Part shown: piece after piece, positions 8,262 to 21,797 of the stretch
Numbering within the stretch: position 1 is the first letter of the stretch
Layout of the letters: each line of letters opens with the position of its first letter
Origin: Lentzea aerocolonigenes
GTDB taxonomy: Bacteria; Actinomycetota; Actinomycetes; Mycobacteriales; Pseudonocardiaceae
Assembly: GCF_000955955.1 (NCBI RefSeq)
Contig: NZ_JYJG01000110.1
Span: 1-21,840, forward strand
Length of the DNA stretch: 21,840 nucleotides
Reading direction: 5' to 3'
The notes under the pieces: generated by a model
Databases searched by the model: none
Told to the model about the DNA's origin: nothing
The model's input: the letters and a program-made list of their open reading frames with translations, nothing else
Position numbers and translations under genes: made by a program

Positions 8262-9767
8262 GCACAGTTCTCGAACCCGGTCCTGCCCGGCTCGCACCCC
8301 GATCCGTCGGTGTGCCGGGTGGGACCGGACTACTACCTGGTCACGTCCACCTTCGAGTACTTCCCCGGCCTGCCGGTCTACCACAGCCGCGACCTGGTGC
8401 ACTGGCGGCAGCTCGGCCACGTGCTGGACCGGCCGTCGCAGCTGCCGTTGCAGGGAGTGCGCGCCTCCGGTGGGCTGTACGCGCCGACGATCCGGCACCA
8501 CTCCGGCGTGTTCTACGTGGTGTGCACGTTGGTTCACGGGACGCGGGAGACCGGCAACTTCGTCGTGACTGCCACCGATCCGGCCGGGCCGTGGTCCGAG
8601 CCGACGTGGCTTCCCGAGGCCGAGGGGTTCGATCCGTCGTTGTTCTTCGACGACGACGGGCGGGCGTGGTGGACCGGGACCCGCGAGATCCGCGACGGGC
8701 GAACCGAGGTCTACCTGCGCGAGTTCGACCTGGAGACGCTTTCCCCGGCAGGCCCGGACCACGTGGTGTTCCGCGGCGCGATGGCGGAGTCCCGGTGGCT
8801 CGAAGCACCGCATCTGTACAAAGTGGATGGACGATATGTGCTGGTGTGTGCCGAGGGTGGCACGGACTTCGAGCACTCCGTGGTGGTGGCGTTCGCTGAC
8901 GAGGTGACCGGACCGTATCGCGGGTCGCAGCTGAACCCGGTGCTGACCCATCGGCACCTCGGGCGTTCGCATCCGATCGCTGCTGCAGGGCATGCGGACC
9001 TCGTGTGCACGCAGAACGGTCAGTGGTACGCGGTGTTGCTGGCGGTGCGCCCGTACGGCGGCTACTACTACAACCTGGGCCGCGAGACGTTTCTCGTGCC
9101 TGTCTCGTGGGAGGCAGACGGTCCGGTGTTCAGCCCGGGCACCGGGCGGGTCGAGGTCTCGTACCCCGTTCCGGACCTGCCTCCGCACCCGTGGCCAGAG
9201 GAGGATCCGGCGTGGATGTTCGTGCGCACTCCGGAGTCGGACTTCCTGTCGCTCGATTCCGGCCGCGTGCGGCTGCGCCTGCGTCCCGAATCGATCACCG
9301 GCCTCGTCAACCCGAGTGCCGTGGTGCGGCGCCAGCAACACCAGTCGTTCCACGTGTCGTGCTCGCTCGACTTCTCGCCCGCGGGGCCGTCCGAGGCCGC
9401 TGGGATGGTGCTGCTGCAGAACAACGACCACCACGTGCGGTTGATGCTCGGGGCCGGCCGTGAGGTCACGCTGGTGCGCCGGGTCGGCGGGCAGGACGAG
9501 GTGCTCGCCAAGGCCCAGGCCGGCGAGGGTGCGGTCAGGCTCGGTGTGGAGGCACACGGTCAGGAGCACCAGGCGCTGGTCGACGGGCGACCGCTGGGTG
9601 CGCCGTTCGACGGCCTGTTCCTCAGCACGCCGGTCACCGGCGGGTTCACCGGAGTCCACATAGGACTCTATGCGACCAGTGACGGCGTGCCGAGCGACTC
9701 GTGGGCCGACTTCTCCGGCTTCACCTACCGCGAAGTCCCGCAGGGGTCATCCAGCTGCCACCAGTAG
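8259..9767 (+). CDS. GH43 beta-xylosidase / alpha-L-arabinofuranosidase (intracellular)
   Basis: The 502-aa protein has an N-terminal five-bladed beta-propeller and a C-terminal beta-sandwich (about 325-502), the layout of GH43 beta-xylosidases of the XynB type. The catalytic triad is visible: general base D15 in SHPDPS, pKa modulator D125 in EGFDPSLFFDDDG, and acid E182 in WLEAPHLYK. There is no signal peptide, so it should hydrolyse imported xylo- or arabinoxylo-oligosaccharides. Sequence alone does not separate xylosidase from arabinofuranosidase. It starts with TTG 13 bases after the GH10 stop and is probably the last gene of the operon. Its last 43 bases overlap the convergent GNAT gene, with no terminator between them. 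Confidence 0.94.
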   Translation: MAQFSNPVLPGSHPDPSVCRVGPDYYLVTSTFEYFPGLPVYHSRDLVHWRQLGHVLDRPSQLPLQGVRASGGLYAPTIRHHSGVFYVVCTLVHGTRETGNFVVTATDPAGPWSEPTWLPEAEGFDPSLFFDDDGRAWWTGTREIRDGRTEVYLREFDLETLSPAGPDHVVFRGAMAESRWLEAPHLYKVDGRYVLVCAEGGTDFEHSVVVAFADEVTGPYRGSQLNPVLTHRHLGRSHPIAAAGHADLVCTQNGQWYAVLLAVRPYGGYYYNLGRETFLVPVSWEADGPVFSPGTGRVEVSYPVPDLPPHPWPEEDPAWMFVRTPESDFLSLDSGRVRLRLRPESITGLVNPSAVVRRQQHQSFHVSCSLDFSPAGPSEAAGMVLLQNNDHHVRLMLGAGREVTLVRRVGGQDEVLAKAQAGEGAVRLGVEAHGQEHQALVDGRPLGAPFDGLFLSTPVTGGFTGVHIGLYATSDGVPSDSWADFSGFTYREVPQGSSSCHQ

Positions 9768-10162
9768 CCGGCGTCGTCGTGAGGTGATGGCTGCCCACCG
9801 GCGGCTTCGTACAGCGCCTTCGCGGCGTGGTTGTCCTCGTCGGTGAACAGCCACATCTTCCGGTGCCCTTCGCTGACGGCCTGGTCGCGGAAGGCCGTCA
9901 GCAGCGCGCGCCCGATGCCACGTCGCCGCGCCGTCTGATCGACGCCGATCTCGTACAACTGCACCTGCGAGTAGCCGCACACGTGGCGCTGCCGCAGTCC
10001 CCACACCCAGCCGAGCACCTTGTGGTCTCCCAGTGCCAGCAACGCGATGGTCGCCGGATCCGTCAGGAACGGAGTGTGGTCACGCACCTCGACGCCGCGG
10101 AACTTCCGCACCGCGGCGTCGAGCAGTTCGTGGTCCTCCGCGGTCAGCCGGTGGATGCGCAT
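9725..10162 (-). CDS. GNAT-family N-acetyltransferase
   Basis: The 145-aa protein is a compact GNAT domain. Acetyl-CoA binding motif A is LYEIGVDQTARRRGIGRALL (69-88), with RRRGIG as the pyrophosphate loop. NHAAKALYEAAGG (111-123) is motif B. It would transfer an acetyl group to an amine of unknown identity. The ATG at 10162 lies 20 bases after the GH38 stop in the same direction, so it is probably the last gene of the mannoside operon, possibly by coupling (GGCGGG just before the ATG). A much longer open frame continues upstream to 11413, but that extension is a shadow of GH38. Its 3' end overlaps the GH43 gene by 43 bases. A sugar-amine substrate would fit the operon, but nothing in the sequence proves it. 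Confidence 0.88.
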   Translation of the reverse strand: MRIHRLTAEDHELLDAAVRKFRGVEVRDHTPFLTDPATIALLALGDHKVLGWVWGLRQRHVCGYSQVQLYEIGVDQTARRRGIGRALLTAFRDQAVSEGHRKMWLFTDEDNHAAKALYEAAGGQPSPHDDAGYWWQLDDPCGTSR

Positions 10163-10182: not shown

Positions 10183-13100
10183 CTACCGGATGCTGACGGG
10201 GATCGCGGGGGAGTAGTACAGCCTGCCGTGCGCGGCCACCCGCACCAGCGTCCACCAGTGCGCACCTCGGCGAGCTGTGGGTGCCGCGGTGGCCGTCACC
10301 GGTACGGTGATCTTGCCTGCCGGTGGGATCACGAACGGCTGGGTGCGCGGACCGATGGTGACGTCGTCGTCCCACGTGCCGAACGGGCTGATCACGGTGA
10401 TCTCGCCGTGCAGTTCGCTCTGGACGCGGTTGTGCAGCGTCACCGGCAGCAGCGCGTGCTCGCTGGGCGCGAGCAGGAGGGCGCCTGCCCTGAGCAGGAC
10501 GTCGACCAGGTCCCGGTCGGTGCTGGGGCCGGACACCACCTCGATGCTGTCCTCCAGCACCTGGCCGAGGTGGTCGCGGATGCGGGCGGCGTGCAGGTGA
10601 CGCCCCGGCCTGGCCTTCAGGGTGGCGGTGAACTCGGCGAACTCGCCGGCCGCCAGGTCGTAGTCCCACGACTGACCACCGCTGAACTCCAGGCGACCCT
10701 TGGCCGGAGTTCCGCTGCAGCTCACGGTGATCCGCGCTGGGGCTGTGGCACCGGGCGCGAGACGGGTGAAGGACGGGGTGACGTGCACGGAGACCGGCAG
10801 GTTGCCGATCGGGGCCGGGCCGGAGTTGTGCCGCCAGTAGCGGGTGTAGACCGGCTGGACGGGTTCGAGCGTTTCGATCGGCGCGACGGGGAGCCGTGAC
10901 GAAGGCACCAGCCGCAGTGTTGCTACGTCCGCCGCGCCCAGTGAGACCTCGGCCTGTCCGGAGTGGACGGGAAGCGGTTCGATTTCGCGTTCTTCCAGCA
11001 GGTCCAGGCGTTGAACCGCTTCGATTCCGCCGTGCAGCGACATCGAAGCGGTTACCGGCGTCCCGGTCGACTCGTACAGCCGCACCGAGAGGTCGGAGCC
11101 GTGGTCGTCGGTGCACGACGCGAGAGGGTTGCCGTGGATCTTGGCCGCGGTCAGCAGGACACTGGGCGGTGAGACGGCCAGCAGGCTCAACGAGGCAGGC
11201 AGGTCGCCAGGGCTCGACGGCACCTGGCGGGCGTGCAGCGGGTGGTTGACGTCCTGGCTGATGCGGGCGAAACCAGCGCGGCGCCAGTCGCCCGCTCCGG
11301 CGACCAGGCTGAGGTCGAAGGTGTGGGACCAGTGCTGGTAGGCGAAGCTGGACCCGTCCGGCACCGTGCGGCGGTCGCCGTCGACCCACACCTCCGCCGG
11401 CCAGCCGCTGCACGAACGCATCAACGACACGTGCAGGGTGCCGTCCGGCGACACGACGAACCCCGGGGTGCCGCGGTTGACGACGGCCACCGAGTGGTCG
11501 ACGGCGGGATCGGTGGTGCCGCCGGACACTTCGACGCAGGCGTCGGCGAGGTCCTCGATCAGCGCCTCGACGTCCATCACGATCAGCACCGGCAGGTCAC
11601 GCGGTCCGCGCAGGTCGGCGTCCGGCACCCACCGCTGTGCTCGCGAATAGGAGGCGGGCACGAGCACCCGGCCGGTGGCGTCGAGCGTCGCGCGGTACTC
11701 GGGCGCGCTGTCGAGCACCGCCGCCGTGAAGTCGTTGTGGCCGACGACGATGCGCACGTCGGGCAGGTTGGAGTCCACGTCGAGCGAGCCGTAGCGCGGC
11801 CCGGAAGCGCTGGTGCGGGTGGCGGTGACGCCCTTGGCCACCAACGCGGCCATCAGGTCGCGGGCGTCGTCGGCGATGACCTCCGCGACCCCGATGGCGT
11901 GCAGAACACCGTCGGGCAGCCGAAGCCGAACTGGTGCGGAGAGCCCGGCCCAGGTGTGCGCGGGGCTGTCCAGCGTCCACAGGTGCGTGGCCGCGTCGAC
12001 GTCCGGGAAGCCGAACGAACGGCCCACCGCGGCGAACCCGACCTCGGCCACGGGCAGCGCGCCGGGCAGGTCGAACGCGAACCGGCTGCGCAACAAGCGG
12101 TCCTGGCCGATCGAACCGTCCACGAAGGACCGGACGTCGACCCGTGGCAACCCGTGCCACAGCGTGACCTGCTGCCTGATCCGCAGTTCGCCGAGCGAGC
12201 AGGAGCTGATGAGACGCTCGCCGACGGGGCTCGTCTCCGAGCGCACCACGGCCGGACCAGCGGTCACCCCTGGGCCCTTGGGCAGCAGATGCCACGGCCC
12301 CTCACCCCACACCGGATGCCCGGGATGTTCCTCCTGCACGAGCATTTCAGCCGCGAGACGACCAGGTCGTAGCAGTTCGCGCTCAGCCGCCACGTCGTAC
12401 ACGCGGGACAACGCACCGCCGCGCTCCGGATCGGCCTCGACCACGAACGCCTCGGACTCGATCGTCACACCGGGCTGTGGCATCCAGTAGGGCGGGACCT
12501 GGTAATCGTCGACCACCCGGAACACCCGGTAGCCGCAGGCGGGAACCTGCCGTGCCACGAACGTCAGCGTCAGTTCGAGCGTGTCGTCCGGATGCTTGAT
12601 CACCGCCTCGGTGACCGCGGCGACCTCGACGCCATCGGCGTCCAGCACGCGCGCACCCTTGAAACCGGGCAGACGGAGTTCCACGGTCGCGACCGCATCA
12701 CGGGCGAAGGCCAGCGAGTTGACGACGATCACCGCCTCGCCCACGCCGGAGGTGTCGGCGCAGGCGGCCAGGTGCGAGATCGCGTCGCCGAGAACCGCAC
12801 GACCGAGCTCGTCGGCTTCCCGCCAGCCCGTCAGCAGATCGAGGTACACCTGGTCCGACTCGGTACCGGTGATCGCGTCGTGGTGCGCGCCGTAGACAAG
12901 TTGCCGCCAGGCCTTGTCCAGCGCGAACGCCGGATAGCCCGCGCCGAGCAACGTCGACAGCGCCGCCATCCGCTCACCGTCGAGCACCGCCACCTCGGCC
13001 GCGCGCTGCGCCTGCTTGGTGTCGATGTACGAGACGTCCTTGCCGGTGTAGACGGGATTCATGTCCCTGGTCTGCGGGCTGAACTTCACCGAACGCTCAG

Positions 13101-14286
13101 AGGCGTCGGCACGCACCGCGGCGAAGAAGTCACGAGGCAGGCCGACGACGAACCGCGGCCAGACATAGCGTGCGTTCCACGCGCGATGGATCTCCGTGCA
13201 GAACCGCGACGGCACGTTGTGGTCGTGCCCGACCGGCAGCAGCACGTTCCGGGTGGCCGCGACCGAACGCAACGAGGTGAACTGCCGGTACGCCTCCGCC
13301 ATCGCCTCGTCCAAAGTGGACTTGCGCTCGATGTCCCACCCGGCCACGTAGTGATCGGCGAGGTAGGCCGTCAGCACCCCGCGCCCGCTCGGCGAGATCC
13401 ACTCGAACTCGGAGGGGAACTGCATCCGCGTGATGTCACCGGTGTGCCGCTTGGCCCCCACGTGATGCCACGGCCCGCGCGCCCACACGCTCGACGTGAG
13501 CCCCGCATCCGCCATCAGCCCGGGATAGGAGGGATCGTGCCCGAACACGTCGAGCATCCACGCGGACTGCGGATCGGCACCAAGCACGTCCCGTTGGAAC
13601 CCGACGCCGTAGACCGCGTTGCGCACGGTCGACTCCGGATGGGTCAGGTTCGTGTTGGCCTCGTTGTAGTTGCCGCCGACGATCTCGATCCGGCCTTCGC
13701 GCAGGAACCGCCGCAAATCGTGCCGGTCATGGGGGAACGCGTCCCAGTGCGGCTTGAGGTAGTCCACCTCGGCGAGCACGAACCGGTAGTCCTCATCCGT
13801 CCTGGCGGCGTCGAGATGAGCGCGCACCAGGTCGAACGCCGAGAGCTGGAACGGCATCCGCTTCGCCTGCGCGCCCGGCAGGTCGAGCCAGGTCTCGGTG
13901 AAGCCCGCCTGCGTGTTCCACCACACCGGGTCGTAGTGGAAGTGCGACACCATCCACATCGTCCACCCGGTCTCCGCGGCGGTCACCGTGACGTCCCAGG
14001 CGTGCGGTGGCGCACCGCTGACCGGCGCGACGAGCACGGTCGCCGGGTAGGCCGTGCCCGCGGTGGTCGGCGCGGAGAAGACCACGCCGACCTCGGCCAC
14101 GACCTCGTCCGGACCTGCCGCCACGCGCACCGGTTCCGGTGTGCGCACAAGAGGCCCGGTGATCCGCACCCACGCCTGCTCGGACCGCGGCACCGAGACG
14201 GTGACGCGAACCAGCTGGCGCGGTGCGGAAGCCAGGCCGACGAACAGATCCGTGCTCTCGACGGACACCCCAGGATCAGTTGGCAC
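10183..14286 (-). CDS. GH38 alpha-mannosidase, unusually long
   Basis: The 1367-aa protein contains a complete GH38 catalytic domain from about residue 108. All four expected zinc ligands are present: H117 and D119 in HFHYDPVWW, nucleophile D246 in WMLDVFGHD, and H469 in YGAHHDAITGTES. A roughly 105-residue beta-rich N-terminal region precedes it. A very long C-terminal part follows the mid and beta domains, ending in two beta-sandwich-like segments (about 1170-1270 and 1285-1367), the first resembling NEW3-type domains. Many bacterial GH38 enzymes are roughly 850-1050 residues. No signal peptide is seen, so it should act on imported alpha-mannosides; linkage is unknown. The GTG start is 4 bases after the binding-protein stop, with only a weak distant SD (AAGGGG), so coupling is likely. 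Confidence 0.95.
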   Translation of the reverse strand: MPTDPGVSVESTDLFVGLASAPRQLVRVTVSVPRSEQAWVRITGPLVRTPEPVRVAAGPDEVVAEVGVVFSAPTTAGTAYPATVLVAPVSGAPPHAWDVTVTAAETGWTMWMVSHFHYDPVWWNTQAGFTETWLDLPGAQAKRMPFQLSAFDLVRAHLDAARTDEDYRFVLAEVDYLKPHWDAFPHDRHDLRRFLREGRIEIVGGNYNEANTNLTHPESTVRNAVYGVGFQRDVLGADPQSAWMLDVFGHDPSYPGLMADAGLTSSVWARGPWHHVGAKRHTGDITRMQFPSEFEWISPSGRGVLTAYLADHYVAGWDIERKSTLDEAMAEAYRQFTSLRSVAATRNVLLPVGHDHNVPSRFCTEIHRAWNARYVWPRFVVGLPRDFFAAVRADASERSVKFSPQTRDMNPVYTGKDVSYIDTKQAQRAAEVAVLDGERMAALSTLLGAGYPAFALDKAWRQLVYGAHHDAITGTESDQVYLDLLTGWREADELGRAVLGDAISHLAACADTSGVGEAVIVVNSLAFARDAVATVELRLPGFKGARVLDADGVEVAAVTEAVIKHPDDTLELTLTFVARQVPACGYRVFRVVDDYQVPPYWMPQPGVTIESEAFVVEADPERGGALSRVYDVAAERELLRPGRLAAEMLVQEEHPGHPVWGEGPWHLLPKGPGVTAGPAVVRSETSPVGERLISSCSLGELRIRQQVTLWHGLPRVDVRSFVDGSIGQDRLLRSRFAFDLPGALPVAEVGFAAVGRSFGFPDVDAATHLWTLDSPAHTWAGLSAPVRLRLPDGVLHAIGVAEVIADDARDLMAALVAKGVTATRTSASGPRYGSLDVDSNLPDVRIVVGHNDFTAAVLDSAPEYRATLDATGRVLVPASYSRAQRWVPDADLRGPRDLPVLIVMDVEALIEDLADACVEVSGGTTDPAVDHSVAVVNRGTPGFVVSPDGTLHVSLMRSCSGWPAEVWVDGDRRTVPDGSSFAYQHWSHTFDLSLVAGAGDWRRAGFARISQDVNHPLHARQVPSSPGDLPASLSLLAVSPPSVLLTAAKIHGNPLASCTDDHGSDLSVRLYESTGTPVTASMSLHGGIEAVQRLDLLEEREIEPLPVHSGQAEVSLGAADVATLRLVPSSRLPVAPIETLEPVQPVYTRYWRHNSGPAPIGNLPVSVHVTPSFTRLAPGATAPARITVSCSGTPAKGRLEFSGGQSWDYDLAAGEFAEFTATLKARPGRHLHAARIRDHLGQVLEDSIEVVSGPSTDRDLVDVLLRAGALLLAPSEHALLPVTLHNRVQSELHGEITVISPFGTWDDDVTIGPRTQPFVIPPAGKITVPVTATAAPTARRGAHWWTLVRVAAHGRLYYSPAIPVSIR

Positions 14287-14290
14287 GGTG

Positions 14291-15592
14291 TTACTTGGCC
14301 CCTTGCAATGCTGCCTCGGCGTCGCGGAAGTACTGCGCGACCGCGTCGGGGATCGACATCTTGCCGAACGCGACCTGCTTCGCCGCCGAGTCCAGCGCCG
14401 TCTTCGCGTCGTTGTAACCAGGAGGCGCCGTCGGGGCGTTCGGCAGCCCGTCCTTCGCCACCTCGTCGGCGACGTACTGCGCGTACGTCACATCGCGCTT
14501 GTCGGATGCCGTCAACGTCGGCGTCAACGTCTCCAAGGCCTTGCCCGACGGCGGGATTCCGCGCGACATGCCCATCGCCTTGATCGCGTCGACGTCGCTG
14601 ATGAACAGGTCGATGACCTTGGCGGCGGCTTCCGGGTTCTTGCTCTTGGCCGGGATGCACAGGAGCACACCGCCGCTGAGGGCCTGTCCGGTCTTGCCGT
14701 TGCTGCCGCGCGGCACCACCACGATGTCGAGCGCGTGCTGGGTCAGCGGCGCCATCTGCGCGAGGCCCCACCCCGTGGTCATCGCGATCTGACCGGAGAT
14801 CAACGGGTGGTTGCCCGTCGCGGAGTCGGTGTTGGACAGCATCTCGGGCGGGCAGATCGCACCGGCCTTGCGCAGCTTGTCCCACAGCGCGAACCACTCG
14901 GCGAGATCGTCCTTGGTGAACCCGAGCTTGCCGTCGCCGGTGTAGAGGTCCTTGCCCCGCTGGCGAAGCCACGGCTGCAATGCGCCGGAGTCGTCCTTGG
15001 AAGCGTCCAGCGCGCCGTACTTGCCCTGCCCCATCGCCTTCGACATCTCACCGGCGATGCGGCCGAAGTCGTCCCACGTCCACGTGTCGGCGGGGACGGG
15101 GATCTTCGCCTGCTCGAAGACGGTCTTGTCGTAGAGCACCGGCGCGTAACCGGACCCGGACGGCACGCCGTAGGTCTTGCCGTCCACCACGCCCGCCCCG
15201 CGCACCGCCGAGTAGAGCGTGTCGAGGTGGATCGTGTTCGGGATGAACGATCCCAGGTCGGTCAGCACGCCCTTGGCCGCGTAGGTGCTGACCAGCGCGG
15301 TGTCCATCTGGAAGAGGTCGGGCGGGTTGCCGCCGGCGAACTCGGTGTTCAGCTTGTTGAAGTACCCGTCGTACCCGGAGAACTGGGGGTCGACCTTGGT
15401 GCCGTTCTTCTGCGTGAAGATCTGCAGAGCGCTCTGGTACGCCTTGTTGCGCGCTTCACCACCCCACCAGCGGAACGTCAGCGAGTTGTTCGCCGCGCCA
15501 CCGCTGTTGGTCGGCGCGAACCCGCAGCCGGCCACCGACGCGGCGGCGAGACCACCGGCAAGGCCGAAGAGGCCTCTCCTGGAGATGGACAT
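14291..15592 (-). CDS. Sugar ABC transporter substrate-binding lipoprotein (mannoside operon)
   Basis: The 433-aa protein starts with a twin-arginine stretch (SRRGLFG, residues 4-10), a hydrophobic run and a lipobox VAGC (20-23, lipidated Cys23), so it may be a Tat-exported lipoprotein. The mature part is a family 1 solute-binding protein (LTFRWWGGEARNKAY; NPPDLFQMDTALV; YGVPSGSGYAPVLYDK). It would bind the oligosaccharide that GH38 later cleaves; an alpha-mannoside is inferred from the downstream gene only. GGGAG lies about 4 bases before the ATG. It follows the MalG-type gene after a 29-base gap and precedes GH38 by 4 bases. Confidence 0.95.
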   Translation of the reverse strand: MSISRRGLFGLAGGLAAASVAGCGFAPTNSGGAANNSLTFRWWGGEARNKAYQSALQIFTQKNGTKVDPQFSGYDGYFNKLNTEFAGGNPPDLFQMDTALVSTYAAKGVLTDLGSFIPNTIHLDTLYSAVRGAGVVDGKTYGVPSGSGYAPVLYDKTVFEQAKIPVPADTWTWDDFGRIAGEMSKAMGQGKYGALDASKDDSGALQPWLRQRGKDLYTGDGKLGFTKDDLAEWFALWDKLRKAGAICPPEMLSNTDSATGNHPLISGQIAMTTGWGLAQMAPLTQHALDIVVVPRGSNGKTGQALSGGVLLCIPAKSKNPEAAAKVIDLFISDVDAIKAMGMSRGIPPSGKALETLTPTLTASDKRDVTYAQYVADEVAKDGLPNAPTAPPGYNDAKTALDSAAKQVAFGKMSIPDAVAQYFRDAEAALQGAK

Positions 15593-15621: not shown

Positions 15622-16458
15622 TTACTTGATGCCGGTGGTCGCGACGCCCTCGACCAGACGGCGTTGCGAGACGATGAAGACGGCGACGGTGGGGACGAGG
15701 GTGACGACGGACATCGCGAGCATTCCGCCGTAGCTGGACCCGCTGGCCCGGTCGACGAACGCGTTGAGCCCGAGCGGTGCGGTGTAGCGCGAGTGGTCCG
15801 ACAGGTAGACCAGCTGGCGCAGGAAGTCGTTGAACGTCCAGATGAACGTCAGGATCGTCGTGGTGAGCAGCGCCGGCCGCAGCAGCGGCAGGATGATGCT
15901 GAAGAACACCCGCACGTGCCCGGCGCCGTCCAGCGCCGCCGCCTCGTCCAGCTCGCGCGGGATGCCGCGGATGAACTGCACCATCAGGAAGATGAAGAAG
16001 GCGTCGGTGGCCAGCAGGTAGGGCACCACCAGCGGCAGGAACGTGTTGATCCAGTTCAGCTGGTAGAAGATCGTGTACTGGGGGATCAGGGTCGCCTGGA
16101 ACGGCAGCATCATCGTGCCGAGCATCACCGCGAACCAGAACCTCTTGAACGCGAAGTCCAGGCGCGCGAACGCATACGCCGCCACCGAGCAGGACGCCAC
16201 GTTCGCGACCACCGTGCAGAGTGAGACCGTCAGCGAGTTGGCCAGGTAGACGGTGAACGAGTTGCCCGTCGCCGTCCAGCCGTTGATGTAGTTGGCGATC
16301 GTGAAGGCGAACGGGAACGGGTTCATCGTGCTGAAGATCTGGTTCTCCGGCTTGAACGACGCGCCGACCAGCCAGACCATCGGGTAGATCATCGCCACGA
16401 GCACGACGATCAGCACGGCGTGCGCCCGCCAGTGCACCTGCTTCTTCTCAGTCCGCAT
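15622..16458 (-). CDS. Sugar ABC transporter permease, MalG type (mannoside operon)
   Basis: The 278-aa protein has about six transmembrane segments, beginning HAVLIVVLVAMIYPMVWLVG. The EAA loop starts at Glu172 (EAAALDGAGHVRVFFSIILP) and would dock a shared ATPase. Its ATG lies inside the 3' end of the MalF-type gene with an 11-base overlap (16448-16458), so the two are translationally coupled. With the partner permease it forms the channel of the second importer. Confidence 0.95.
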   Translation of the reverse strand: MRTEKKQVHWRAHAVLIVVLVAMIYPMVWLVGASFKPENQIFSTMNPFPFAFTIANYINGWTATGNSFTVYLANSLTVSLCTVVANVASCSVAAYAFARLDFAFKRFWFAVMLGTMMLPFQATLIPQYTIFYQLNWINTFLPLVVPYLLATDAFFIFLMVQFIRGIPRELDEAAALDGAGHVRVFFSIILPLLRPALLTTTILTFIWTFNDFLRQLVYLSDHSRYTAPLGLNAFVDRASGSSYGGMLAMSVVTLVPTVAVFIVSQRRLVEGVATTGIK

Positions 16459-17401
16459 AGTTCACCCACTTGCGGGCCGACCAGAAGTAGATCGCCGTGA
16501 AGAGGCCGATCACGGCGAACAACACCCACGCCATCGCGGAGGCGTAGCCCATCTGCATGCTGCCGAATCCCTTGAGGTACAGATAAAGCGTGTACAGGAG
16601 GGTCGAGTCGATCGGGCCGCCGAGGCCGTTCGAGATGACGTAGGCCGGCGTGAAGGTCTGGAACGCGTTGATCGTCTCCAGCACGAGGTTGAAGAAGACC
16701 ATCGGGGACAGCAGCGGCAGCGTGATCTTGAAGAACACGGTGAACCGCCCGGCGCCGTCGATGGCCGCGGCCTCGTACAGGTCCTGCGGCAGCTGCTTGA
16801 GCCCGGCCAGGAAGATGAGCATCGGCGTGCCGAACTGCCAGCCGGACAACAAGACCAGCGTCCACAGCGCGTAACGCGGGTCACCGATCCAGTCCGAGCC
16901 CTGGATGCCGAACAGTCCCAGGAACTGGTTCACCAGCCCGTCGCGGGAGAAGATCTGCCGCCACATCACCGACACCGCGACGCTCGCGCCCAGCAGCGAC
17001 GGCAGGTAGAACGTCGCCCGGTAGAAGCCGAGCGCCTTCAATCCGCGGTTGAGCGCGACGGCGACCAGCAGCGCGGCGGCGAGCTTGAGCGGGACCGAGG
17101 TCACCACGTAGAGCAGCGTCACCTTGATCGACTGCAGGTACCGCTCGTCGGAGAACAGCCGGACGTAGTTGTCGAAGCCGATCCACTGTGGAGCGGTGAG
17201 CAGGTTGAACTTGGTCAGCGACAGGTACAGCGAGTACACCATCGGGATCAGCGTGAACGCGAACAGGCCGATCAGCCAGGGCGCGAGGAAACCGTAACCC
17301 GCGAGGTTGTGCTTGTGTCGCTTGCCTTTGCGTCGCACGGGCGGCGCCGCTTCCTCCGGGACAGGAGGGTCGAGCACGGCAACGCCGCTGTTCTCCGACA
17401 T
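16448..17401 (-). CDS. Sugar ABC transporter permease, MalF type (mannoside operon)
   Basis: The 317-aa protein has a basic cytoplasmic N-terminus (RRKGKRHKHN, about 23-32) and about six membrane segments. The EAA loop starts at Glu210 (EAAAIDGAGRFTVFFKITLP). It is the first gene of the mannoside operon. The start is the ATG at 17401 because AGGAG lies 6 bases upstream (17408-17412). The open frame continues upstream to an ATG at 17476, but those codons run into the MITE-like element and have no conserved look. Promoter and operators lie at 17568-17613. Confidence 0.94.
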   Translation of the reverse strand: MSENSGVAVLDPPVPEEAAPPVRRKGKRHKHNLAGYGFLAPWLIGLFAFTLIPMVYSLYLSLTKFNLLTAPQWIGFDNYVRLFSDERYLQSIKVTLLYVVTSVPLKLAAALLVAVALNRGLKALGFYRATFYLPSLLGASVAVSVMWRQIFSRDGLVNQFLGLFGIQGSDWIGDPRYALWTLVLLSGWQFGTPMLIFLAGLKQLPQDLYEAAAIDGAGRFTVFFKITLPLLSPMVFFNLVLETINAFQTFTPAYVISNGLGGPIDSTLLYTLYLYLKGFGSMQMGYASAMAWVLFAVIGLFTAIYFWSARKWVNYAD

Positions 17402-17438
17402 GTGCTTCTCCTGGGACGTCATCACTGGCCCTTGGGGC

Positions 17439-17518
17439 CTAGGCCGTGTCCTGTAAGTCTGTTCGATGAGAGTCACGGTCGAGACTGTCGCGGACGAGAC
17501 TTACAGGACACGGCCTAG
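17439..17518. mobile_element. MITE-like palindromic element, 80 bp
   Basis: Two perfect 22-bp inverted arms (17439-17460 and 17497-17518) enclose a 36-base centre. The left arm begins CTAGGCCGTGTCCTGTAAG. Both outer ends are CTAG, which may be terminal bases or a 4-bp target duplication; CTAR/CTAG-type targets are known for parts of the IS5 family. There is no room for a transposase, so if mobile it is non-autonomous. It lies 37 bases upstream of the first mannoside gene and inside its predicted leader, where the RNA would form a long hairpin. It lacks a T-tract, so a simple intrinsic terminator is unlikely. The repeat is seen; mobility is inferred. Confidence 0.65.
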
Positions 17519-17567: not shown

Positions 17568-17581
17568 GGAAAGCGCTTTCC
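17568..17581. promoter_or_regulatory. LacI-type operator at the mannoside operon start point
   Basis: GGAAAGCGCTTTCC is a perfect 14-bp palindrome with central CG, the LacI/CcpA-family form. It begins 3 bases downstream of the predicted -10 and covers the expected transcription start near 17578. A repressor bound here would block initiation. No regulator gene lies in this operon, so the protein is encoded elsewhere or is the repressor at 2983-4017, although that one's apparent operator differs. Confidence 0.65.
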
Positions 17582-17815: not shown

Positions 17816-19783
17816 ATGACCGCCGCCGCGGTGTATCTGCCGAGCCAGCACGCGAGCGTGCACGACCTGCCCGACGACGACGAAGAGCTGCGGATGGTGC
17901 TCGCCAGGGCGGTGTCCGCGGTGATCGCGCGCCAGCGTCCCGACGGCAACCTCGAAGATCCGGCCGCTGACGATGACATCGGTGACATGGCGCTCGGCGT
18001 GGTGTCGTTGCTGTGCCTGGCATGGCACCGCGGTGACCGGCGGGACCCCGAGATCGTCGAATGCGTTCGACGCGGGCTGGACTTCGTGCTTGCCGAAAGG
18101 GTCTTCCGCACCGACAATCCCGGCGAGCCGTTCCTGCTCGTGCGCGACAGCGGTCTGCCGTACGCGCGCTACGTGCTCGAAGCCGGCGAGCACCCCTTCG
18201 GCGACTGGCCGAGCACGGTGTGGGCGTTGCTGCACGCGGTGAACGTGCTGGAGTTCGGCCGCGAGGTGATCACCGGGGAGCAGTGGACCGCGCTCGCCGA
18301 GGTGGCGACGGGGTTCTGGCGCTGGCTCACCGAGGCGAGCATGTTCAACCCGCAGCAGACGGCGAACCAGGCGATCGGCGCCGTGGTGGCCGGTTTGACG
18401 CTCGGGCGGTTGTTGTCCGAGAAGTCCATCGTGGACGTCGCGATGTTCCTGTACCACAGCGAGGTCAGGGCCAGCCGCGTCGTCGACCGCGAGCTGCGGC
18501 TGCCGGTCGAGCACGGCGCCGGGCACGACCAGAACTACCTGCCGATCTCGCTCACCTTCCTGGCGCGGGCCTACCAGGTGAGCGGCGAGAAGTGCTTCCT
18601 CGACGACGGCGAGGAGATCGCCCGGCACCTCGAGACCCGGCTGTCGGCGCGCGGTTTCGACTACGGCGGGCCCCGCTACAGCGAACAGCACTCCGGTTGT
18701 GAAGGCATGCTCGGGCTGCGGTTCTTCAGCGGTCGCATCCAGGCTGAGCTGGGGCGTTACCTCGGCGACCGGAGGGTGGCCTATTTCTGCGCCAGTACGC
18801 CCGGCCTGCCGAGCGGGCACTTCGCCTTCGCCACCGTGTGGTCCTTCCTCGACGACAGCCGGTGGTACCGCGAGCAGTCCGACGGCCCTGTGCACACCCG
18901 CTATTCGTTGCGGCACGGGAAGGTCTCCGTGTCGCTCACCGGCGCGTCGACCCCGTACCTGATCGACGCCGGTGGGACCGCGGTGATCGAGTCGATCGTG
19001 GACCACCAGCACGGCATCGGGCCGTTGGTGCGTTACGCCGACGGCCGCAGAACGCTGCTGACCCGGCCGCTCGGCCCGGCCCGTGTGCGCGACGTGGCCG
19101 CGGACGGACTGGGCGCCAAGCTGGTGACCAAGGCCGTGGTGACCTGGGACCAGGTCATGCACTCCGTGCAGCAGCTGTACGTCACCGACGGCGAAGGCCT
19201 GTTCGTGGTCGCGGTGCTCGACCGTGCCGCGGTGCCCCTCGACGCGGAGCTGACCTTCCTCGCCGGACTCCCTTATGCGACAGCGGAAGGCTCGCGGCAA
19301 CGTCGCATCCGGACGGTCGGCGAGCCGGGCGGCGTGTCGTTCGATCTCGGCGACTCGTGGCGGGCGTTCGACACCGGGGGAGTGCTGCTCGCGGGCGGCC
19401 TCGCGCTGACCTCGGCCGCCGGCCTGCGGGTGGAGAACCCGCCGGACGGCCCCGCGTACTTCAACAACCCGCGCACCGCGGGCATGACCCAGGAACAGCT
19501 GTCCTTCTGGCTCGGCGACGACCCCAGGGGTTACGGCAACCCGGACGCGGGCTGGCACCGGGTGATCGCGACCAACCACGTGCTGGCCGACCCGATCGCC
19601 ACCACGCCGCACGGGCGAGCCGTGTTCGTCCTCTGCTACGGACCGCACCCCGTCGCGCTCGAGGTCGCTGCCGAGGAGGTGCCGGACGGCGTGCGCGTGC
19701 GCACCCCGTTCTTCACGGCGGTGGTCGGCCACCCGGCCGGTGACGTGGGCGGCGAACCCGTCCTGCGCCTTGCCGCACCGTGA
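17816..19783 (+). CDS. Uncharacterised 655-aa protein, probable (alpha/alpha)-toroid carbohydrate-active enzyme
   Basis: I do not recognise a named family. The N-terminal 340 residues are helical with repeated hairpins (AVIARQRPDGNLEDP; ALGVVSLLCLAWHRGD; TANQAIGAVVAGLTLGRLLS at 182-201; SLTFLARAYQVSGEKCFLDDG), as in (alpha/alpha)6 toroids of heparinase/alginate-lyase-type enzymes and some hydrolases. Candidate catalytic blocks are VEHGAGHDQNYLP (231-243) and GPRYSEQHSGCEG (285-297), rich in His, Tyr, Asp and Glu. From about 360 to 655 it is beta-rich (YSLRHGKVSVSLTG; TPYLIDAGGTAVIES), like the beta-sandwich after the toroid in polysaccharide lyases. No signal peptide is visible, so it is probably cytoplasmic. 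GAGGAG lies 5 bases before the ATG. It is divergent from the GH38/ABC operon, suggesting the same substrate. Confidence 0.85.
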   Translation: MTAAAVYLPSQHASVHDLPDDDEELRMVLARAVSAVIARQRPDGNLEDPAADDDIGDMALGVVSLLCLAWHRGDRRDPEIVECVRRGLDFVLAERVFRTDNPGEPFLLVRDSGLPYARYVLEAGEHPFGDWPSTVWALLHAVNVLEFGREVITGEQWTALAEVATGFWRWLTEASMFNPQQTANQAIGAVVAGLTLGRLLSEKSIVDVAMFLYHSEVRASRVVDRELRLPVEHGAGHDQNYLPISLTFLARAYQVSGEKCFLDDGEEIARHLETRLSARGFDYGGPRYSEQHSGCEGMLGLRFFSGRIQAELGRYLGDRRVAYFCASTPGLPSGHFAFATVWSFLDDSRWYREQSDGPVHTRYSLRHGKVSVSLTGASTPYLIDAGGTAVIESIVDHQHGIGPLVRYADGRRTLLTRPLGPARVRDVAADGLGAKLVTKAVVTWDQVMHSVQQLYVTDGEGLFVVAVLDRAAVPLDAELTFLAGLPYATAEGSRQRRIRTVGEPGGVSFDLGDSWRAFDTGGVLLAGGLALTSAAGLRVENPPDGPAYFNNPRTAGMTQEQLSFWLGDDPRGYGNPDAGWHRVIATNHVLADPIATTPHGRAVFVLCYGPHPVALEVAAEEVPDGVRVRTPFFTAVVGHPAGDVGGEPVLRLAAP

Positions 19784-19885: not shown

Positions 19886-19899
19886 TGGGAGCGCTAACA
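19886..19899. promoter_or_regulatory. Operator-like palindrome covering the PAP2 gene SD
   Basis: TGGGAGCGCTAACA has a palindromic core AGCGCT and the same right half as the 681-694 operator. It contains the SD GGGAG (19887-19891), 7 bases before the ATG at 19899, and ends on the first base of that codon. A promoter between the two sites is unclear; TATTGT at 19836-19841 is the best -10, without a good -35. Confidence 0.5.
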
Positions 19900-21797
19900 T
19901 GACCACCACCGCAGCCGCGACTTCTGGCGGGTTCGACCGCAGAGCCCTGTTGCGTCGTTCGGCGATGCTGTCCGCGGGCCTGCTGCTCGGCCCGGCCGCC
20001 CTGGACCGGGCCCTCGAAGCGGCCGCCGCCGAACTGCCCACGGGCGCGGCGCCGTTCGTCGACTCCTACCGCACCAATGTGACGGCCAACCGGACACCGG
20101 AGACCAACGCCGCCGTCCGCGCCCTGTCCGGGATGCAGGACCTCTGGCGCACCGGCGGCAGCTGGGACACCGGAGTCGTGCTCAACCGGAACGTGCTCAG
20201 GGCCAACGTCCGCCACGTCGCGCGGATCACCAGGGCGCGGACCGCCGATCAGGCCAAGCGAGCGTTCATCGTGGACCGTCAGCACCAGAGCTACAGCGCG
20301 ATCGGCGGCCTCGGCCCGCTGGCCGAGCTGTACAAAGCGGGAGCTAAGGCCGTCACCGGCATCACCTCGGCACCGGACGGCACACCGCCGTCCACTGTGG
20401 ACGACAAGCTGCCGCCGGACGCCCCGGCCGGCTCGGCACTCGGCGCGGGCTCGCAGGACTCCGAGCTCGGCCAGGTGGTGCTGCTGGTCAACACCCTGCG
20501 CGGGAACTTCGCCTCCGGCAACCCGTCCAAGTACGCCTACCAGTACCCGCGGCCGTGGCGGATGACCCCGGACAGCACGGTGGTGCCGACCGGTCAGACC
20601 GACCAGTTCGGCTTCCCGGTCTACCGCTCGGACGTCGTGGTCGCCCCGCAGTTGTTGCGCCAGCGCAACCTCAGTCCTGCCGACGACGCGGGCTACCCGA
20701 GCGGCCACACCAACGCGTTGCACCTCGCCTGCCTGGCGCTGGCCTACGCGATCCCCGAACGGTTCCAGGAGCTGGTGACCAGGGCGTTCGACACCGCCGA
20801 CACCAGGATCGTGGCGGGCATGCACTCGCCGGTGGACGTGATCAGCGGCCGGATCCTCGCGACCGCGCTGGCCGCCGCGACGCTCGCGGACCCGCAGAAC
20901 GCCACGCTCAAAGCCGCCGCCCGGACCCAGGCGAACGAGTTCTTCCGCCAGCACGTGGGCGTCGACCTGTTCGAGTACGCGCACTCCGCGGGCATCTCCG
21001 CCGACCCGTACGCCGACCGCGAGGCCAATGCCCGGCTGGTGGAGCCGTTGCTGACCTACGGGCTGCCCAGGATCGGCCACCGGGTGGCGATGACCGTGCC
21101 CAAGGGCGCGGAAGTGCTGCTGGAAACCCGTCTGCCGTACCTCTCGGCGAACCAGCGGCGTGAAGTCCTGCGCTCGACCGCGCTCCCGTCCGGGCACGCG
21201 CTGCTCGACGGCCCTGAGCAGTGGGGCAGGCTCAACCTCTTCGCCGCCGCCGACGGTTTCGGCGCGTTCGACGCCGACGTGCGCGTCGACATGGACGCGA
21301 ACCGCGGCGGCTTCCACACGGCCGACACCTGGCACAACGCGATCGGCGGCCGCGGCGGGCTGGTGAAGATGGGTACCGGCACGCTGACGTTGGCCGGCAC
21401 CAACGACTACACCGGCACCACCCGCGTCGAAGGCGGCACACTGGTCGCCGCATCACCGTCCGCGCTGGGCAGGGGAGATGTCGACCTGCGTGGCGGCACG
21501 CTGCGTCTCGAGACCGCGGTCCGGGTGCGGAACTACCGGCAGGCCTCCGGAACCACCCTGGCGGTGACAGTGCGGCGCGGAGGCTGCGCGGTGCTGTCCG
21601 CCGCACACCCGATCAGGCTGGCGACCGGCTGCGCGCTGGAGATCACGCTGGAGGACGTGCACGCCGGCGCGGTCGTGCCGGTGCTCACCGCACCAGGTCT
21701 GCTCGGCCGGTTCGCCGGCATCACCGTGGCAGGGGGAGAGCGCCGGGTCGAGCCCAGGTACAGCCCGGCCGGCCTCTCGGTGCGCGTCCTGGCCTAG
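19899..21797 (+). CDS. Secreted PAP2-family acid phosphatase with autotransporter-type beta repeat
   Basis: The 632-aa protein starts with a Tat-like signal (FDRRALLRRSAM, Arg14-Arg15, then a hydrophobic Ala/Leu run to about 45). The PAP2 / haloperoxidase-type site is complete: K211-x6-R218-P219 in KYAYQYPRPW, PSGH (267-270), and R303-x5-H309-x3-D313 in TRIVAGMHSPVD, with Thr in place of the usual Ser before Arg. It should hydrolyse phosphomonoesters outside the cell. A second PSGHA (430-434) precedes WGRLNLFAA. Near 486-517 GGLVKMGTGTLTLAGTNDYT is one autotransporter-associated beta-strand repeat, followed by a beta-rich tail without an outer-membrane translocator. The 115-base upstream region carries two operator-like sites. 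It does not obviously belong to either sugar operon, though a phosphomannan or phospho-glycan substrate is conceivable. Confidence 0.92.
   Translation: MTTTAAATSGGFDRRALLRRSAMLSAGLLLGPAALDRALEAAAAELPTGAAPFVDSYRTNVTANRTPETNAAVRALSGMQDLWRTGGSWDTGVVLNRNVLRANVRHVARITRARTADQAKRAFIVDRQHQSYSAIGGLGPLAELYKAGAKAVTGITSAPDGTPPSTVDDKLPPDAPAGSALGAGSQDSELGQVVLLVNTLRGNFASGNPSKYAYQYPRPWRMTPDSTVVPTGQTDQFGFPVYRSDVVVAPQLLRQRNLSPADDAGYPSGHTNALHLACLALAYAIPERFQELVTRAFDTADTRIVAGMHSPVDVISGRILATALAAATLADPQNATLKAAARTQANEFFRQHVGVDLFEYAHSAGISADPYADREANARLVEPLLTYGLPRIGHRVAMTVPKGAEVLLETRLPYLSANQRREVLRSTALPSGHALLDGPEQWGRLNLFAAADGFGAFDADVRVDMDANRGGFHTADTWHNAIGGRGGLVKMGTGTLTLAGTNDYTGTTRVEGGTLVAASPSALGRGDVDLRGGTLRLETAVRVRNYRQASGTTLAVTVRRGGCAVLSAAHPIRLATGCALEITLEDVHAGAVVPVLTAPGLLGRFAGITVAGGERRVEPRYSPAGLSVRVLA

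Follow-up and report, generated by a model that had tools for sequence, protein, structure and literature searches.

Divergent from a set of ABC importer and glycoside hydrolase genes in Lentzea aerocolonigenes lies a gene for a 655-residue protein with no evident family, raising the question as to what kind of enzyme it is and what it might act on. The window examined here is an entire contig of 21,840 nucleotides (NZ_JYJG01000110.1, positions 1 to 21,840), for which the first-pass annotation had proposed a cytoplasmic, toroid-type protein resembling polysaccharide lyases, paired with a mannoside importer, a GH38 protein and a GNAT in the use of a mixed mannose/uronate or acetylated glycan. 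The open reading frame is as described there in coordinates and length: it extends from an ATG start at 17816 to 19783 on the plus strand, its codon usage is of the coding type, and the predicted product has near full-length homologues at 47-94% identity. On homologues and profile similarity we propose that it is a heparinase II/III-like protein (toroid plus beta) that may act as a cytoplasmic oligo-uronide lyase.

Protein searching yielded 377 homologues at E<=1e-3 among 7996 candidates scored. Among the 120 matches listed every named one is actinobacterial, the best being from Lentzea, and most carry the name 'hypothetical protein', with some UniRef entries named 'Heparinase II/III-like'. 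A scan of genome contigs confirmed 179 loci, and the best 80 of these were analysed (63 Streptomyces, 8 Lentzea, 4 Amycolatopsis, 2 Saccharothrix, and one each of Actinospica, Kutzneria and Kibdelosporangium). The family is narrow in spread: in whole-genome samples that included the source genome, 2 of 396 genomes of the phylum gave matches at E<=1e-3, and in the class sample 11 of 394 genomes matched at E<=10, six strongly (E<=1.8e-75) and five through short weak stretches. Two long frames were set aside. The 1213-aa frame at L051:148-3789, near a contig end, joins a regulator-like N-part to a 655-aa-type protein and is probably an assembly join, and the long frame of G128 (L109), considered as a gene fusion, is a read-through in the wrong upstream frame. 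A search of open-licence papers, including the accessible portions of PMC13118837 and PMC9120177, found nothing published on the family.

Conservation was counted over 138 aligned rows, which represent 137 distinct sequences, and the polar residues prove to be very strongly conserved. The blocks rich in His, Tyr, Asp and Glu to which the first-pass annotation had drawn attention, at residues 231-243 and 285-297, are real, with E232, H233, D238 and Y241 in the former and R287, Y288, E290, Q291, H292 and E296 in the latter identical in all 138 rows; N240 is kept in 134. The accompanying claim of a helical N-half and a beta-rich C-half, for which periodicity is the line of evidence, is borne out as a trend at the two ends: of the helix and strand moments, the former is the larger in 29 of 37 windows across residues 1-220 but in only 10 of 33 across 441-655, with strand-like periodicity in the latter. 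The middle of the protein is mixed (7/18 windows for 221-330 and 10/19 for 331-440). The heparinase-like comparison set follows the same trend with a less clean N-end (9/19, 10/18, 15/18, 8/19, 3/18, 5/18 and 1/2). A search for a strongly hydrophobic N-terminal stretch found none, the best KD15 value being 1.37, against 1.67 for the solute-binding protein and 2.12 for GH10; because of this the protein is likely to be cytoplasmic, as had been suggested.

Searches with the single protein gave no match in Pfam (E<=10), NCBIfam (E<=1) or the PDB sequences (E<=10). An alignment of 64 sequences likewise has no PDB match at E<=10, and one of 30 sequences gave a single match at chance level (E=0.93). 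When 64 members were scanned against Pfam and NCBIfam at E<=10 only scattered weak matches were seen, including TPR_10 in six members (best E 0.0062), Alginate_lyase in one (E=0.053) and the NCBIfam model TonB_dep_PUIUD in three (best E 0.00085); Hepar_II_III gave no match among the 64 at E<=10, a threshold to be read with the fact that few matches above about 0.1 survive the HMMER filters. Purpose-built profiles were no more productive. The best GH88 score (a profile of 4 proteins) is 1.0 bits over the 138 rows and -3.8 bits for the 80 neighbourhood copies, and the corresponding GH127 values (10 proteins) are 0.7 and 0.1 bits, so that we reject membership of either family. An alginate-lyase profile (4 proteins) reaches 3.2 bits, compared with 3.1 for reversed copies. 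We also considered PL8, to which the spacing of certain residues is close, but the PL8 profile (6 proteins) fails, with none of the 138 rows above 5 bits, a best score of -0.4 bits, and hhalign P values of 0.21 for the N-half and 0.87 for the whole family. Because there is no significant match to a curated heparinase II/III-like model, and because the active-site residues considered below point both ways, we regard the protein as a divergent heparinase-like variant outside any named PL family. The first-pass view of a toroid-type, lyase-like protein outside the described families is upheld by the Pfam, NCBIfam and PDB searches together with the profile comparisons, though its fold only moderately so.

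It is with the heparinases that a weak similarity does emerge. Heparinase-like proteins were collected by searches with PF07940, PF05426 and PF16889, and two HMMs were built, one of 26 proteins (profile A) and one of 17 selected for the NH motif (profile B); 1372 neighbourhood proteins in 261 clusters served as the comparison background. With profile A the 655-aa family ranks first of the 261 clusters at 13.2 bits, followed by the joined frame holding a 655-aa-type protein (9.8), by a second family, cluster 9 (9.2), and by unrelated clusters at 5.5 bits or less, and 37 of the 40 stretches above 5 bits in the neighbourhood copies span the NH-motif position. With profile B cluster 9 is first (13.2 bits), the 655-aa family second (10.0) and an unrelated single protein third (8.2). 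Applied to the 138 rows, profile A gives a best score of 12.1 bits versus 2.2 for reversed copies, and 28 rows (27 distinct) exceed 5 bits whereas no reversed copy does (0/138). Seventeen of these 28, the Streptomyces-type rows together with L016/P0035 and P0099, align in the NH register at 5.1-12.1 bits, over a stretch that corresponds to residues about 128-216 of the Streptomyces members, includes the equivalent of Asn184, and is preceded by a shorter colinear match. The other 11 (P0004-P0029, the Lentzea-near group) match the start of the model through residues 412-580 at 5.1-9.8 bits, a placement that we take for chance and that marks the noise level, with spurious scores of up to 9.8 bits. 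This group contains the family rows closest to the window protein, which itself scores below 2 bits with the heparinase HMM and lies outside the NH-register alignment.

Comparison of whole families with the heparinases by hhalign gives P values of 0.073 for the 655-aa family and 0.0009 for cluster 9; for the N-halves these are 0.039 and 0.00023, and for the C-halves 0.27 and 0.30. A C-half HMM does not separate the 655-aa family from reversed copies. Residues about 380-405 look by eye like the heparinase 'DPGTY...HNT..DG' stretch, a likeness that no score supports and that we discount. As judged from these comparisons, the N-half is probably a heparinase-like toroid.

If this is so, the catalytic residues may be sought by position. 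The Asn, Tyr and His of PL12, PL15, PL17, PL35 and PL39 enzymes are tabulated in PMC12088678 (Table 4), from whose Asn-bearing entries, as far as the table was available, we took Asn-Tyr spacings of 53-57 and Asn-His spacings of 184-219. Just five of 435 anchor positions, 184-188, have an invariant Tyr at +53 to +57 together with a His at +184 to +219 as defined by those entries, and Asn184 is the only invariant Asn among them, in a test that was framed after the spacing had been noticed. Asn184 (codon 18365-18367, plus strand, as are those that follow) is present in all 138 rows, is placed by hhalign on the NH-motif Asn, and is the proposed carboxylate neutraliser. Tyr241 (18536-18538; 138/138 rows), at +57 from Asn184, as in the PL17 entries available, is proposed as general base/acid, and His399 (19010-19012), picked out by the spacing test in the C-half, as the second base/acid; it is kept in 134/138 rows, with Arg or Asp in the remaining 4. 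Two features complicate the assignment, namely that the NH-motif His is replaced by Gln185 in 138/138 rows, and that hhalign in its register sets the lyase Tyr against residue 237 (His in 109 rows, Tyr in 29) and not against Tyr241. His233 (18512-18514; 138/138 rows), 8 residues before Tyr241, would by spacing be the alternative, PL8/PL23-like His.

Pfam identifies the genes adjoining on the other side, and the ABC and GH38 genes reported in the first-pass annotation are real. Reading leftwards from the 655-aa gene, all on the minus strand, are an ABC permease (16448-17476, or from 17422 if codon statistics are followed for the start), a second ABC permease (15622-16458), an ABC solute-binding protein whose nearest named solved relative is YesO (14291-15592), and a GH38 protein with no obvious signal peptide (10183-14286, alternative start 14268). 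The closest solved relatives of the last are 2wyh and 3lvt/5kbp, named alpha-mannosidase or GH38, and its sequences HFHYDPVWW, DVFGHDP and HHDAITGT keep the HxD, DxFGH and HHD motifs, which have catalytic meaning in GH38. Beyond this lie a GNAT gene (9725-10162), situated between GH43 and GH38 genes, and a distinct group of xylan-type genes (GH3, LacI, ABC, GH10 and GH43). To the right of the 655-aa gene is a PAP2-family protein with a PATR repeat (19899-21797, plus strand), whose N-terminus by reading is twin-arginine-like. PAP2 with an autotransporter-type repeat is an odd pairing in a Gram-positive, and both domains are also present in one scanned Streptomyces copy.

The neighbourhoods of the 80 loci show how much of this arrangement is conserved. 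The counts include loci at contig ends and depend on dicodon-based gene calls and sequence-similarity clusters, the family names of which derive from one or two scanned members each, and they take in permeases and binding proteins from any further ABC set that the flank contains; so read, both permeases are present in 76/80 loci, and 74 have a binding protein, 64 a ROK regulator, 62 the PAP2 cluster, 52 a BadF-type (GlcNAc-type) kinase and 36 cluster 9. An association with the importer is therefore found, as the pairing proposed earlier implied. With GH38 the pairing is seen outside Streptomyces (16 of 17 loci) but seldom within it, where it is present in 4 of 63 loci and was sought without success in the fetched flanks of the other 59, giving 20/80 overall. 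The proposed GNAT partner fares worse, as the gene is real but tblastn (E<=1e-5) finds nothing that corresponds to it in the flanks fetched for the 80 loci. Regular partners in Streptomyces are the ABC genes, ROK, the kinase and often the second heparinase-like protein. None of the 8 Lentzea loci has a ROK gene or a kinase, and a kinase search of the source genome found two stretches elsewhere at 31-32% identity.

Gene order also differs among the genera. In Lentzea the 655-aa gene diverges from the GH38 and ABC genes, whereas in Streptomyces it is immediately preceded, in the same direction, by the second permease (23 loci) or by cluster 9 (36 loci), with 57 of these 59 gaps being no more than 84 bases; 12 of the 23 permease gaps are no more than 7. 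The start of the gene is overlapped in Actinospica (4 bases), Kutzneria (10) and Kibdelosporangium (4) by a Gfo/Idh/MocA-like frame, assigned by reading and, for Kibdelosporangium only, by PDB search, and in the same three genera a DUF6807-cluster gene follows. In all 8 Lentzea loci (L002-L007, L010 and L015) the PAP2 gene is succeeded downstream by a second ABC set, then by a gene read as Gfo/Idh/MocA-like and a DUF6807 gene, a part of the locus that the window contig is too short to reach. Cluster 9 (L033:8281-9990 and 35 other Streptomyces loci) encodes a protein of ~570 aa with TPNHRWEL and YSERS motifs and no Pfam match in the one member scanned, and it is directly upstream of the 655-aa orthologue in 36/36 loci that have it. 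A paralogous relationship between the two was considered and set aside: direct hhalign gives nothing, though both resemble heparinases.

The partner proteins offer some guide to the substrate. Among named solved relatives the binding protein is closest to YesO (E 1.7e-39); 4ovj and 4r6k, whose names say no more than solute-binding protein, score similarly, and 2uvh, a pectin-oligosaccharide binder, is more distant. The description of a mannoside importer finds no support here, YesO being a pectin-oligosaccharide binder, and for an acetylated glycan we found no evidence. According to the sections of PMC7596534 available, the ligand of YesO is an unsaturated uronyl trisaccharide, and the system to which YesO belongs includes a cytosolic GH105 enzyme. 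For the kinase the nearest relative is a MurNAc/GlcNAc kinase (E 7e-20), with a hexokinase and NAGK next. In the parts of PMC12772297 available, a lyase occurs together with GH38, ABC genes and a GlcNAc kinase in the xanthan locus of an actinobacterium, and such components are also combined in xanthan loci in the available parts of PMC12827396. The substrate may thus be an oligosaccharide of uronate and mannose, perhaps with amino sugar as well. The host genome has seven GH88-type matches elsewhere, six of them over the cut-off, and their products could take up the product of a lyase; one of the seven (G000:C503:21176-22102) has an in-frame TAG.

We tentatively favour the interpretation, to which we give a little short of an even chance, that the 655-aa protein is a divergent heparinase II/III-like member acting as a cytoplasmic lyase on imported uronate oligosaccharides. 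For its detailed fold, lyase chemistry, residue roles, substrate and order of steps we infer the following. An alpha/alpha toroid and a beta-sheet domain would work together in the cytoplasm; the ABC importer would take up an oligosaccharide containing uronic acid, which the protein would cleave by beta-elimination, with Asn184 neutralising the carboxylate and Tyr241 and His399 as base and acid. The fragments would be finished by the GH38 alpha-mannosidase in most non-Streptomyces and a few Streptomyces loci, by the second heparinase-like protein in many Streptomyces, and, in the majority of Streptomyces loci as well as in Actinospica, Kutzneria and Kibdelosporangium, by the GlcNAc-type kinase.

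The same observations can be accommodated in other ways. A rather unlikely one is that a related toroid scaffold here carries glycoside hydrolase activity, that of a uronidase or an unsaturated-uronyl hydrolase for instance, with E232, D238, E290 and E296 supplying the acid/base and nucleophile. The family does have many invariant acidic residues and a Gln where heparinases have the NH-motif His, and the YesO system, in the sections of PMC7596534 available, pairs its importer with a GH105 hydrolase; the failure of the GH88 profile, although made from 4 proteins only, and of the GH127 profile speaks against this, as does the presence of GH88-type matches at 7 other places in the host genome. 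The loss of the canonical His could also be taken to indicate a relative that binds sugars in a regulatory role or without catalysis, or else an enzyme with another fold and no connection to uronates; the heparinase match would then be chance, and HMM scores of up to 9.8 bits at implausible places within the family lend this some weight. We nonetheless consider it unlikely, given the very strong conservation of polar residues, the stable co-occurrence with importer genes, and the rank of first or second among 261 clusters.

Less probable still is a lyase with PL8/PL23-type chemistry in which Asn184 (or Asn178), His233 and Tyr241 would all lie on the toroid. The spacing Asn-49-His-8-Tyr is close to those of PL8 (50, 9) and PL23 (55, 8) in the available part of Table 4 of PMC12088678, and the EHGGAYDNNYG of many Streptomyces members resembles the PL8 stretch QH....Y..GYG; against this are the PL8 profile and hhalign results given above, and Asn178 fits the PL8/PL23-like spacing as well as Asn184. 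We also entertained a new polysaccharide-lyase family in a pathway for the head groups of plant GIPCs (composition from the available part of PMC7980081), where GH38 would deal with mannose, the lyase with glucuronic acid, the kinase with GlcN(Ac), the Gfo/Idh/MocA-like protein of some loci with inositol and the apparently secreted PAP2 protein with phosphate, a reading that we regard as very improbable.

Among known systems, the heparinase II/III-like lyases (PF07940/PF16889; PL12, PL15, PL17, PL21, PL35 and PL39) resemble the 655-aa protein in the weak toroid-half match, the Asn in register and the Asn-Tyr-His spacing, but it differs from them in lacking a Pfam match and a detectable C-half match, in having Gln for the NH-motif His, in being probably cytoplasmic, and in the ambiguous Tyr assignment. 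The PL8 lyases (xanthan, hyaluronate, chondroitin AC) are similar in Asn/His/Tyr spacing and in the look of the His-Tyr stretch, but their profile does not detect it. GH105 enzymes are toroids, and YesR, the cytosolic enzyme of rhamnogalacturonan uptake by Bacillus subtilis YesOPQR, is one; that system is alike in its related binding protein and two permeases, but the GH88-type profile fails on our protein, and the available sections of PMC7596534 name no GH38 or ROK gene. The Paenarthrobacter ilicis 6C xanthan region, as far as its description was available, likewise brings GH38, an ABC importer, a GlcNAc kinase and a lyase directed at uronates together in a single locus, but the lyase is a secreted PL8 accompanied by GH9, neither of which Pfam finds in the Lentzea window; the host genome has no Lyase_8_N match. 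The first-pass annotation is partly supported and nearly right, in that the unassigned neighbour of the conserved importer is probably a toroid-type, cytoplasmic protein. It may represent an intracellular sugar-chain lyase of a new type. If our preferred reading is right, the heparinase-like lyases gain an unlisted intracellular branch in which the active-site motif has changed, and attention is drawn to an uptake locus conserved among actinobacteria, made up of importer, ROK regulator, kinase, lyase and GH38, for which the open-licence papers searched name no substrate.

The region between the divergent genes contains a perfect 14-bp palindrome, GGAAAGCGCTTTCC (17568-17581), found by pattern search, which we take to be LacI-operator-like. 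It occurs upstream of the orthologue in 8/8 Lentzea, 3/4 Amycolatopsis and 0/5 other non-Streptomyces loci, and the whole of the 63 Streptomyces loci yielded no copy when searched. The case for it lies in this exact conservation, not in its rarity in the window, where 0.83 chance occurrences of the pattern are expected with 3 mismatches allowed. Co-regulation with the xylan genes was considered and dismissed, as even with 3 mismatches there is a single occurrence in the window and none near those genes. A different palindrome, TGTTAGCGCTAACA, is present at 681-694, between the GH3 gene and a minus-strand frame at 2-673. The interval from the permease to the 655-aa gene also holds a 72-bp MITE-like element (17443-17514) with perfect 18-bp terminal inverted repeats, flanked by CTAG duplications at 17439-17442 and 17515-17518. 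It was not seen in the intergenic regions of the 8 other Lentzea loci, and two further 44-bp partial matches to it (89%) are present elsewhere in the genome.
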